A stretch of DNA of 42,724 bases from Planctomycetota bacterium. Lineage in GTDB: Bacteria; Planctomycetota; Planctomycetia; Gemmatales; Gemmataceae. Position 1 is the first letter of the stretch. Every line of letters starts with the position of its first letter. Both the position numbers and the translations under genes were made by a program. Location: assembly GCA_016191165.1 (NCBI GenBank), contig JACPPF010000113.1, forward strand, positions 1-42,724. The letters are read 5' to 3'. A model generated the notes under the pieces. It saw nothing but the letters and a program-made list of their open reading frames with translations. It ran no database searches and had not been told where the DNA came from. Below, piece by piece: positions 30,626 through 34,512 of this stretch.

Positions 30626-32191
30626 TTACTCCCACTCAATCGTCGCCGGCGGCTTGCTCGAAATATCGTAAACCACCCGGTTGATGCCCTTCACCTGGTT
30701 GATGATGCGCGTCGAAATCTTGGCCAACAATTCATACGGCAGGTGCGACCAGTCCGCAGTCATGAAGTCGTCGGTCTGCACTGCTCGAAACGCGATGGCG
30801 TTCTCGTAGGTTCGGCCATCACCCATCACGCCGACGGATTGCACCGGCAACAAGACCGCAAAGGCTTGCGAGGTTTTGCGATACCAGCCAGATTGTTTCA
30901 ACTCTTCCAGAATGATCGCGTCGGCCTGGCGCAGGATCTGCAAACGCTCCGGGCTGACCGGGCCCAAACAGCGCACTGCCAGGCCTGGGCCTGGAAACGG
31001 ATGACGCCAGACGGTCGTTTCGGGGAGCCCAAGTTGCAGGCCAAGGCGGCGCACTTCGTCCTTGAACAAATCCTTGAGCGGCTCGATCAACTCGAAGCCA
31101 AGCTCCTTGGGCAACCCGCCGACGTTGTGATGCGTCTTGATCGTCGCCGCTGGACCGTCGGCGGCGGCGCCGCTTTCGATCACGTCGGGGTACAATGTGC
31201 CCTGGGCGAGAAATTTCGCATTTTCGATGGTCCGCGCCTCGTCCTTGAACACGTCGATAAAGACGTGGCCAATGATTTGACGCTTTTGTTGCGGATCGCT
31301 GACGCCCGCCAGCGCGTCGAGGAAGCGGGCGCCGGCATCGACGCTGTGCAGGTCGGCGTGGAAATGGTCGCGGAACGTCCGCTGGACCGCTTCCACTTCG
31401 CCTTTGCGCAGCAGGCCATTATCGACAAAAATGCACGCAACTTGCTGCCCGATCGCCTTGACCAAAAGGGCCGCGGCGACCGAGGAATCCACTCCGCCGG
31501 AAAGCCCGCAGATGACGCGATGGCTGCCCACGCGCTCTTGGATGTCGGCCACCGTCTGTTCGATGAACGATTCGAGCTTCCAGCGCCCGGCGCAGCCGCA
31601 AATCTTGTACAGGAAATTATGGAGTATCTGATTTCCAAAGGGGGTGTGGCTTACCTCCGGATGAAACTGCAAACCGTAGATTGGCTTGCTGGCGTGGCGC
31701 ACGGCGGCGACCGGGCAAGTGTCCGTGGAAGCGAGCGAGATGAACTCGTTTCCTCCCGCCGAACCGGATACGCTTACCTGGTCGCCGTGGCTCATCCACA
31801 CGATCATTTCTTCGGGAACCTCGGCGAATAGCCCTTCGGATGCCTTCACGCGGCAAATAGCCCGGCCAAACTCGCGATGGTCCGCGGGGACGACCTTGCC
31901 CCCCTGAAGGTGACACGCAAGGTGCATGCCGTAGCAAATGCCGAGTACGGGAATTCCCAGATCGAAAATCTTCGGATCGCAGGTCGGCGCGCCGTCAGCG
32001 TAGACGCTGGCCGGGCCGCCGGAAAGGATGAGCCCGCTGGGCTGCAATTCCCGAACGCGCTCGGCCGTGATGTTGGCGCGCACCAGCTGGCAGAAGACGT
32101 GCTGTTCGCGCACGCGCCGGGCAATGAGCTGGGCGTATTGCGAGCCGAAGTCCAAGATCAGGATGCGTTCGGTGTCATGTTGAATCGTCAT
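30626..32191 (-). CDS. guaA: GMP synthase (glutamine-hydrolysing) GuaA
   Basis: 521 aa, complete. N-terminal class I amidotransferase with Cys86 in [10 protein letters not shown] and His177/Glu179 in [13 protein letters not shown]-pyrophosphatase part with SGGVDSS (231-237); C-terminal dimerisation domain ending [18 protein letters not shown], the typical end. It converts XMP to GMP with glutamine nitrogen, thus feeding GTP pools. The next minus-strand gene (Rpn) begins 6 nt after the stop. ProC is upstream by 96 nt. A cyclic di-GMP-type riboswitch lies two genes further up, so a GTP-precursor gene is in the same run. Confidence 0.98.
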
Positions 32192-32287
32192 TTCATACGA
32201 ATCCGTGTGATGTAGTCTAAGTGTGACGGGCGCCGCAGTCGGACCCCGTCGCTTGCGCTCCGGGCTGGTGTGGGGATTGCCGCTGAG

Positions 32288-33103
32288 TCATTTCCCACCC
32301 AGTTCCGTTGACCGGTTTGTCGCCGCCTCCACGGCATCCATCAAGGCGCCGCGCAGGCCGCCGCGTTCGAGTTCGTGCAGTCCGGCGATGGTGGTGCCCG
32401 CGGGACTGGCGACCATGTCCTTGAGCTGCGCGGGATGGAGGCCGGTTTCCAACAGCATCTGCGCCGAACCAAGAACGGTTTGCGTTGCCAGCATCATCGC
32501 CAAATCGCGGGGTAAACCCATGCGGACGCCGCCGTCAGCCAGGGCCTCAATCATTACAGCGACAAACGCGGGACCGCTGCCGGATAACCCTGTCACCGCG
32601 TCCAGCAACTTCTCCGGAACCTGCACGGCCCGACCGACGCTGTTGAGCAGGCGCTCCGTGAGTTGAACATCGGCGGGGGTTGCCGTCGTCGAGGCCGCGA
32701 ACGCCGACGCGCTGGCGCCGACCAGGCATGGCGTGTTGGGCATGACGCGGATGATGCGCCGGTCCTGGCCAAGACTGGTAGCAAGTTGCTTCAAGGTGAT
32801 GCCGGCCGCGATCGAAATCACGACGTGGCGTGGGACCACGACCGGTTTGACTTCGCTGAGCAGGTCGGGCATGTTCTGCGGCTTGACCGCTACAACCAGC
32901 ACGTCGCAGGAATTGACCGCTCGAGCGTTGTCGGCAAAACAGGCGGCACCGGTCGCTTTCGCGAAATGTTCACGCGCGGCAGGAACCGGATCACTGGCGC
33001 AGGTGTGCTCGACCGCCGCCAGCCCCGCGCGAATCCATCCCTGGGCCAGGGCGGTTGCCATCTTGCCTGCGCCGAGAAAACCAATGCGAAGCGAATCCGT
33101 CAT
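32288..33103 (-). CDS. proC: Pyrroline-5-carboxylate reductase ProC
   Basis: 271 aa from the ATG at 33103 (MTDSLRIGFLGAGKMATAL), which is the family start; the open frame above it is leader. NAD(P)-binding GxGxM loop GFLGAGKM (8-15), LVVAVKPQN, RVMPNTPCLVGA and the signature LSGSGPAF (173-180), with SPAGTTIAGLHELE near the end. It makes the last step of proline synthesis. A sigma-70-like promoter is visible 40-75 nt upstream, so it may be transcribed independently of UPF0173. Confidence 0.97.
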   Translation of the reverse strand: MTDSLRIGFLGAGKMATALAQGWIRAGLAAVEHTCASDPVPAAREHFAKATGAACFADNARAVNSCDVLVVAVKPQNMPDLLSEVKPVVVPRHVVISIAAGITLKQLATSLGQDRRIIRVMPNTPCLVGASASAFAASTTATPADVQLTERLLNSVGRAVQVPEKLLDAVTGLSGSGPAFVAVMIEALADGGVRMGLPRDLAMMLATQTVLGSAQMLLETGLHPAQLKDMVASPAGTTIAGLHELERGGLRGALMDAVEAATNRSTELGGK

Positions 33104-33149
33104 GGCCGGTTCATCCGAGGGCGATTCGTTCTGTGCCGGCGAAAACTTT

Positions 33150-33178
33150 ATGATATATGATGGGGGACAGGTTTCCAA
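33150..33178 (-). promoter_or_regulatory. Sigma-70-like promoter of proC
   Basis: On the minus strand TTGGAA (33178-33173), a 17-nt spacer, then TATCAT (33155-33150; 5 of 6 to the consensus). Transcription would start near 33143, about 40 nt before the proC ATG. It lies directly after a 9-bp hairpin. Confidence 0.55.
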
Positions 33179-33206
33179 GCCGCCCGCGGCGTGGCGAGCG
33201 GGCGGC
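33179..33206 (-). terminator. GC-rich hairpin after UPF0173 gene
   Basis: GCCGCCCGC and GCGGGCGGC (33206-33198 and 33187-33179) pair perfectly around a 10-nt loop, 25 nt after the UPF0173 stop. No U-run follows (TTGG), so it may be a weak or Rho-assisted terminator, or a boundary for the proC promoter just behind it. Confidence 0.4.
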
Positions 33207-33231
33207 GCCATGCAGGCGCTATACGAGGACA

Positions 33232-33918
33232 TCAAAGCGTGATCTCTTGTCCGGGTTGCAACACGATGGCTTGAGCGCTCGTTTCCGCCTTCACGCGCGC
33301 GGCCCAGGCCTGGGCGTCCTGAGCGATGATTGGAAATGTATCGTAGTGGATCGGGATCACCTGCTTCGGCTGAATCAGCTTGATCGCCCGGATGGAATCG
33401 TCCGGGCCCATCGTGTAGTTATCGCCGATGGGCAGAATCGCAAGGTCGATGCCTTCCTCGCCGATCAGGCGCATGTCGCCGAATAGGCCGGTGTCGGCCG
33501 CGTGATAGATTTTCTTGCCGTCTTTGAGGTAAATGAGGAACCCGCACGGATTGCCCCCGTTGGAACCGTCAGGCAGGGCGGAGCCGTGGAAGGCAAGCGT
33601 CAACTTCACGCGGCCAAAGGGATGATTGAACCCGCCGCCGTGTTGCTGGCCGTGAACCTTGGTCAGGCCCTTCTGTTCGAGCCAGCAGGCGATTTCGTAA
33701 TTGCTGATGACGGTTGCGCCGGTTCGCTTCGCGATCTCAACGCTGTCGCCGACATGATCGCCATGCCCGTGTGAGATGAGGATGAAATCGGCCTCGGCCT
33801 CCGCTGCCCTGATGACGGCCTTTGGATTGCCAGTGAAAAATGGATCAATCAAGATCTTCGAGCCGGCGGTGTCAAGCGCCATGGCGGCGTGCCCGAGCCA
33901 GCGAATGCGCGTGGTCAT
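33232..33918 (-). CDS. UPF0173 metal-dependent hydrolase (metallo-beta-lactamase fold)
   Basis: 228 aa from the ATG at 33918; AGGA is about 10 nt upstream. The beta-lactamase-fold site is LISHGHGDHVGD (His50, His52, Asp54, His55), with CGFLIYLKDGKKIYHAADTGLF for the later Asp and PIHYDTFPI for the last His. UPF0173 proteins bind two metals and have no agreed substrate. The gene is the first coding unit downstream of the riboswitch-like leader on the same strand (about 200 nt from the aptamer). If the leader terminates transcription, this gene is what it controls first. Confidence 0.92.
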   Translation of the reverse strand: MTTRIRWLGHAAMALDTAGSKILIDPFFTGNPKAVIRAAEAEADFILISHGHGDHVGDSVEIAKRTGATVISNYEIACWLEQKGLTKVHGQQHGGGFNHPFGRVKLTLAFHGSALPDGSNGGNPCGFLIYLKDGKKIYHAADTGLFGDMRLIGEEGIDLAILPIGDNYTMGPDDSIRAIKLIQPKQVIPIHYDTFPIIAQDAQAWAARVKAETSAQAIVLQPGQEITL

Positions 33919-34013: not shown

Positions 34014-34027
34014 ATCCGCAGTGTTTG

Positions 34028-34283
34028 AAAAAAGCAAAGCAAGTCGAAACGCGGCCACCTTGTGAGTAGCCCCTGGATCGGGCGGATGTGCGTGACATCC
34101 GGGGACGGACGGGCTCTTCACCGGTCCAACCCTTCGGTAGCGTGGCGACCTTTCCATTCAAGCGCGAAATCCCGCGCCTGACCAGAAGGCTAAGGCCCAT
34201 CGCTTTGCGTCGCCGTCTTTCGACGGGTTTGCCCTTTCGAGGATGAAAGGCGTTTCGATCCAGGTCAAGCGTTTCGACTTGCT
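34028..34283 (-). promoter_or_regulatory. Putative long-range terminator enclosing the riboswitch
   Basis: On the minus-strand RNA the 5' arm AGCAAGUCGAAACGC (34283-34269) is the exact reverse complement of the 3' arm GCGUUUCGACUUGCU (34052-34038). The 3' arm runs into UUGCUUUUUUC (34037-34027), so pairing would make a 15-bp stem directly before a U-tract with the aptamer in its loop. A shorter copy UCGAAACGC (34258-34250) next to the aptamer could compete for the same 3' arm (9 bp), and the hairpin GGCUAC/GUGGCC (34069-34051) overlaps the base of the 3' arm region. This has the makings of a switch, but the folding is read by eye. Confidence 0.6.
34122..34247 (-). promoter_or_regulatory. Cyclic di-GMP class I (GEMM) riboswitch aptamer
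   Basis: Minus-strand RNA carries the GEMM core in order: AGGGCAAACC (about 34238-34229), the stem CCGUC-GAAA-GACGG closed by the GAAA tetraloop, then GCGACGCAAAGC (about 34212-34201), then GGGCCUUAGCC (the tetraloop-receptor side), an extended stem GCGCG/CGCGC and the closing segment ACCGAAGG (about 34137-34130). These match the Vibrio Vc2 aptamer order (GGGCAAACC, GAAA, GGACGCAAAGC, GGCCUAAACC, UUACCGAUGG). The GGG before CAAACC is kept, which favours c-di-GMP over the cGAMP-selective variants. P1 closure is not certain. The first gene downstream is UPF0173. Confidence 0.85.
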
Positions 34284-34512
34284 CCAAGTTTGCCGCAAAA
34301 AAACCGGCAACCTCGTTTGCTGGTTCAACCCTACCTCACGAAACCCTAAAAGGCAATTCAATTGAAGGTTGAAATCGTTCCGCAAGGTCATTGAAGTTTC
34401 GACCGTTCTCGCGCCGATAGAAACCTATTGACCCTAAGGACTGTTCTGCGTTAGCAATTGTACATTGTGAGAAGGGTCACCCCCGTAAATTTGACGACCG
34501 CGCGGAGATCTC

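Follow-up and report, generated by a model that had tools for sequence, protein, structure and literature searches.

Introduction

To our knowledge nearly all known riboswitches regulate their own mRNA, and the known members of the GEMM-I aptamer family (RF01051) are mostly cis leaders. Trans-acting riboswitch RNAs of Listeria and Enterococcus go by the names SreA, Rli55 and EutX. Such RNAs contain a ligand-binding aptamer and act on distant mRNAs or proteins (work cited in PMC7266159). A further RNA, the merRNA of Bdellovibrio bacteriovorus, is 445 nt long, massively expressed and contains a c-di-GMP riboswitch; it has been proposed to serve as a c-di-GMP store, and was reported not to be conserved outside Bdellovibrio (PMC3627812).

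In the present study we have analysed a stretch of 42,724 nucleotides (the window) from a planctomycete of the family Gemmataceae, whose minus strand carries a c-di-GMP-I aptamer within a longer conserved RNA element. The element shares with RF01051 the aptamer fold, a score above the gathering threshold, the bases G20, A47 and C92 and a P2 stem with a GNRA-type cap, but differs from the mostly cis-acting members in that long-range stems of 17 and 9 bp enclose the aptamer in what is apparently a separate RNA. Taken as a whole, the RNA departs from the usual pattern of a cis riboswitch. With SreA, Rli55 and EutX the element, as proposed here, has in common a ligand-binding aptamer inside an RNA acting at a distance, although theirs are other ligands and another architecture. 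The nearest precedent is merRNA, likewise a stand-alone non-coding RNA with a c-di-GMP riboswitch and no conserved downstream open reading frame (PMC3627812), whereas the present element, known here from comparative genomics, is conserved in an order of planctomycetes and has a covarying architecture of its own. A search of the open literature gave no report of a planctomycete c-di-GMP riboswitch RNA of this kind.

Results

The aptamer and its predicted ligand

The RF01051 covariance model scores 69.0 bits at 34132-34242 of the minus strand, against a gathering threshold of 35 and with an E-value of 5e-13 for the whole genome, and the sole match of an Rfam cmscan of the whole window is RF03167 (c-di-GMP-I-GGC) at the same coordinates (60.2 bits, gathering threshold 59, E-value 6.9e-12). 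The core motifs follow one another on the minus strand in the order GGGCAAACC, GAAA-capped P2, GACGCAAAGC, GGGCCUUAGCC and ACCGAAGG. An earlier note, made from the letters alone, had recognised a planctomycete c-di-GMP-I riboswitch in these motifs at 34122-34247 and had named the RF01051 model as the check; all the motifs that it quoted are present in the order that it gave, and both model scores bear out the aptamer. The bases G20, A47 and C92 (Vc2 numbering), which contact c-di-GMP in the Vc2 structure, are found at 34233, 34206 and 34137, respectively. The aptamer is real, with a score far beyond chance, and is a member of the c-di-GMP-I family, its predicted ligand being with high confidence c-di-GMP.

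Two related specificities were considered and rejected. In the cmscan alignment position 47 is a G in the RF03167 consensus (GACGCGAAGC) and an A in the window (GACGCAAAGC); since A47 stands where the GGC variant expects G, c-di-GMP is the best-guess ligand and the GGC label a near-tie artefact. RF03167 comes first by E-value in cmscan, yet its bit score is below that of RF01051. The 3',3'-cGAMP (GEMM-Ib) riboswitches have A at position 20, and the window has G20. Rfam labels based on E-values thus call these aptamers c-di-GMP-I-GGC (in the window at 34132-34242) despite the A at the naming position, and the same label may be widespread in automatic planctomycete annotation.

Some copies of the element in other genomes depart from this core. 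In the Gemmata-like loci L164-L167, L175 and L194 the stretch GGGCUAACC replaces GGGCAAACC, a change near the ligand site. L162, L176 and L193 have a divergent P3 (CAAAGAGACAG...CUGCUCUGCCGAAGGG) where other copies usually carry the arm GC(N)AUGGGCC, and the receptor side of the aptamer seems to have been rebuilt.

A longer structured RNA around the aptamer

The whole element extends on the minus strand from 34027 to about 34320 (about 290 nt). In order, a promoter and a 5' hairpin are followed by two nested stems (outer, 17 bp; inner, 9 bp) around the aptamer, two more hairpins and a terminal GCUUUUUU. The feature delimited in the earlier note holds for the aptamer; the conserved feature that encloses it is more than twice as long. 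Its parts, together with the adjoining gene, are the following (coordinates in the window):

34328-34356, minus: promoter-like site TTGCCT, 17 nt, TAGGGT (same pattern and place in 36 of 41 elements)
34314-34321, minus: AGCAAACG, with the expected transcription start at about 34320
34285-34315, minus: 5' hairpin P0 with a 7-nt loop (stems diverged among the 41 loci, most of which are predicted to form it)
34269-34285, minus: outer stem Pa, 5' arm GGAGCAAGUCGAAACGC (two-sided changes at 14 of 17 pairs)
34256-34264, minus: inner stem Pb, 5' arm CCUGGAUCG (two-sided changes at 7 of 9 pairs)
34233-34250, minus: competing hairpin CCUUUC-AUCCUC-GAAAGG, pairing G20 at 34233 (RNAalifold)
34132-34242, minus: c-di-GMP-I (GEMM) aptamer with P1, P2 (GAAA loop) and P3 (RF01051 and RF03167 scores)
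34213-34227, minus: GAAA-capped P2
34202-34211, minus: core motif GACGCAAAGC
34099-34137, minus: hairpin P4, overlapping the 3' strand of aptamer P1 and including C92 (RNAalifold consensus)
34083-34101, minus: hairpin P5 (CGGAUGU/ACAUCCG), variable in sequence (window fold)
34072-34080, minus: inner stem Pb, 3' arm CGAUCCAGG (covariation)
34053-34071, minus: hairpin P6 (two-sided changes at 4 of 4 modelled pairs)
34036-34052, minus: outer stem Pa, 3' arm GCGUUUCGACUUGCUUU (covariation)
34027-34035, minus: GCUUUUUUC tail, a terminator-like 3' end together with Pa (GCU and U-rich run in most loci)
33235-33918, minus: UPF0173-type beta-lactamase-fold hydrolase (Pfam PF12706/PF13483), judged outside the system

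The arms GGAGCAAGUCGAAACGC/GCGUUUCGACUUGCUUU of the window and, within them, CCUGGAUCG/CGAUCCAGG are perfect complements which flank the aptamer at a distance, G-U being counted as a pair in the outermost part of the arms. The predicted folding energy of this strand is -128.6 kcal/mol, with a z-score of -6.4 relative to shuffles. On the 3' side of the outer stem most loci have a GCU, usually followed by a U-rich run, and the U runs are weak in several Gemmata-like copies.

In order to examine this architecture we used an alignment of 26 sequences (A3). The modelled structure leaves 90.2% of cells paired, compared with 78.1% in shuffles and 38-50% when slid by 1-3 columns; as it was derived from the same alignment it is somewhat favoured in this test. 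Cells with two-sided changes number 237 against 78 in shuffles, a count inflated by related sequences, although the slid controls keep the relatedness and stay low. The pair at columns 17 and 303 occurs in several types (AU 11, UA 7, GC 4, CG 1), and in L028 the arms keep their pairing with other letters (GGGGCGAGCCGCUUCUGU/ACAGGGGCGGCUUGCCUU). In P4 88% of cells are paired, with few two-sided changes and with some positions unpaired in many sequences. We regard it as nearly certain that the longer structured RNA is real.

The outer parts match no Rfam family at an E-value of 1, except for a chance match of 17.5 bits on the opposite strand. 6S RNA (RF00013) was rejected as an identity: it has no match at the element, and the genome has its own canonical 6S RNA elsewhere, at G000:C158:52180-52366 (71.5 bits).

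Distribution and copy number

The 29-base motif AACGCCUUUCAUCCUCGAAAGGGCAAACC, searched with at most 3 mismatches, occurs exactly once in 38 of the 95 genomes of the family, the reversed-pattern control giving 0; the addition of diverged copies brought the set to 41 loci. A covariance model of the element (R1) gives one full-length match of at least 129 bits in each of 48 of the 95 family genomes, with an extra partial match of 129.5 bits in G014, and the remaining matches in the family do not exceed 88 bits and are mostly aptamer-only. The full element, with promoter and outer stem, is also present in a sister family of the same order (G408, 204 bits). Beyond that order nothing above 85 bits was found in 294 phylum-wide and 248 class-wide genomes, the latter including family members. 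The low-scoring matches inspected are devoid of the outer stem except for three: in G025 the contig starts inside an apparent element, and those of G006 and G048 resemble diverged or partial elements. Judged by the neighbouring gene, the nearest named relatives are lake-derived MAGs of Gemmataceae.

Other c-di-GMP-I aptamers of the genome

The assembly of the window holds seven c-di-GMP-I aptamers, and the window copy is unlike the other six. Three of these are upstream of Flp/Fap pilin genes (L018, L019 and L020, on contigs C13, C122 and C92 of G000), with two pilins in tandem at the C92 locus and a pilin-like protein below the Pfam cut-off at C13; control of pilins fits ordinary c-di-GMP biology. 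Another stands where a long frame encoding a subtilase domain begins, and a fifth is upstream of a gene for a trypsin-like PDZ protease. Downstream of the sixth come a strong terminator and then a convergent gene. In the copy before the trypsin-like PDZ protease (L006, G000:C92:98079-98159) GGCGGAAAGC replaces GACGCAAAGC, possibly a ligand variant or decay.

A second, shorter type of conserved RNA was also observed, in which a c-di-GMP-I aptamer is followed by GGA(A/T)GGACGGGACCC and then by a strong hairpin, with a long U run in several copies. Its members are L001 (G000:C21:71062-71156), L119, L123, L298, L301, L302 and L304. In the window's genome, in L123 and in L304 the copy is followed by a gene of the opposite strand, so some of these copies may be stand-alone too.

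Proposed working of the RNA

We propose that transcription of the minus strand from 34027 to about 34320 would give a separate non-coding RNA of about 290 nt, which has a promoter and an end of its own and carries the c-di-GMP-I aptamer at its core. In the ligand-free state the 5' hairpin CCUUUC/GAAAGG and P4 would pair up G20 and C92, the two bases by which the ligand is held. On binding, P1 (AUCC/GGGAU) would replace both hairpins and free the conserved strands AACGCCUUUCAUCC and GUCC(A/G)UCCC. The least certain step of the proposal is the last one: in dependence on c-di-GMP, the refolded RNA might regulate in trans, with a protein or mRNAs as its target.

The covariation-weighted RNAalifold run favours the CCUUUC/GAAAGG pairing of G20 together with P4 (CCGAAGGG.../...UCCCCGG) pairing C92, and the default run keeps the 5' hairpin with a shorter P4 lacking the C92 pair. 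The alternative P1 pairing AUCC/GGGAU, which the bound aptamer requires, shares the strands of the two hairpins, and both folds are compatible with the alignment. Since the same strands are used in both folds, the two hairpins may be exchanged for P1 on binding. The competing hairpin is nearly invariant in A3 and is without covariation support; with so little variation in the switching strands, the switch is beyond proof by covariation. In L200 and L201 the pairing of the competing hairpin is missing, L201 retaining the 5' strand. A two-state switch is what the folding models lead us to favour, with moderate confidence.

The stems that isolate the aptamer domain, together with the conserved 5' hairpin, suggest that the RNA is a receptor and has a partner. 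Gene starts were searched for possible targets of the conserved 5' strand, whose complement is GGAUGAAAGGYG; the matches differ between genomes, and no shared gene start was found among them.

Promoter, neighbouring genes and alternative explanations

Upstream of the element, at a constant distance, the pattern TTG(C/A), 16-19 nt, nTAnnnT is present in 36 of the 41 loci, against 0.5 expected from shuffles and 3 in 1677 flanking windows. The next downstream gene varies from genome to genome. In about a third of the loci a gene call based on composition places it on the opposite strand; those named encode a DUF1501 protein, DAHP synthase, UPRTase, a glycosyltransferase and a protein with HEAT repeats. 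Given its own promoter and the changing neighbours, the element is probably an RNA in its own right rather than the switch of a neighbouring gene, and comparative genomics gives here, as for merRNA, a c-di-GMP aptamer in an RNA with no regulated downstream gene. We consider a stand-alone transcript to be highly probable. The reading in full, that c-di-GMP switches a stand-alone non-coding RNA which acts in trans, seems moderately probable from the comparative data, and action on a target rather than as a sponge is only slightly favoured.

Such a sponge or store, by analogy with merRNA, would merely bind and hold c-di-GMP with no further target. A canonical aptamer in a transcript that seems to stand alone, with no gene linked to it, would suit this role, for which merRNA provides the precedent (PMC3627812). 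However, a bare aptamer would suffice for it, and more is implied by the conservation of the outer stems, of the 5' hairpin and of the domain that follows the aptamer; moreover, one copy per genome would demand very high expression. We consider this explanation rather unlikely.

Less probable still is a cis terminator riboswitch, in which c-di-GMP would set whether the outer stem and the U run halt transcription before any downstream gene. In favour of it, the outer stem is followed by GCUUUUUU, and in many genomes, the window included, the next gene is on the same strand. A position in the leader of the regulated gene is typical of RF01051 members, if not strictly required; at these loci, however, the neighbours differ, several of them, such as the genes for DUF1501, DAHP synthase, UPRTase and a glycosyltransferase, have the opposite orientation, the downstream families are unrelated, and in L023 and L028 additional terminators precede the gene, a 19-bp terminator-like hairpin lying between the element and the UPF0173 gene.

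It is very improbable that, as the earlier note had it, the element serves specifically the UPF0173 hydrolase as its leader riboswitch. The gene adjoins the element directly downstream in 4 of the 41 loci (the window, L023, L028 and L029), but most other carriers tested show no linkage: UPF0173 lies on a contig other than that of the element in four congeners (G061, G063, G065 and G066) and also in G004, G028, G043 and G044, and in G010, G011, G034 and G042 the element is present and no UPF0173 match is found at an E-value of 1e-20. The leaders of the UPF0173 genes at L025 and L026, whose protein is 84% identical, have no aptamer. Thus the aptamer of that claim stands, and its UPF0173 link, as a general function, is largely refuted by the non-conserved linkage. 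In the window UPF0173, a proC-like gene and the GMP synthase gene guaA follow in this order on the same strand (30626-33918, minus), an order after the element that is clear elsewhere only in L187 among the loci examined; the precursor of GTP, and hence of c-di-GMP, is made by guaA.

Finally, a protein-coding stretch or a repeat or mobile element in place of an RNA gene, to which the short open frames across the element and the inverted repeats around the aptamer might point, is extremely improbable, as the loci keep no common reading frame across the motif (offsets mod 3 of 12/12/14), the element is essentially single copy per genome and its arms covary, as those of a fixed repeat would not.

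Conclusions

We put forward, tentatively, that this vertically inherited, near-single-copy RNA of the order to which Gemmataceae belongs may be a dedicated c-di-GMP effector, which would refold on binding and regulate a protein or distant mRNAs, a task that otherwise falls to receptors made of protein. The case carries a caution, in that a neighbouring gene is a poor guide for assigning the function of a riboswitch. c-di-GMP signalling in cultured Gemmataceae is little studied. If the proposal is true, merRNA would be no isolated oddity, and a conserved stand-alone RNA with a second-messenger aptamer would represent a signal receptor made of RNA.
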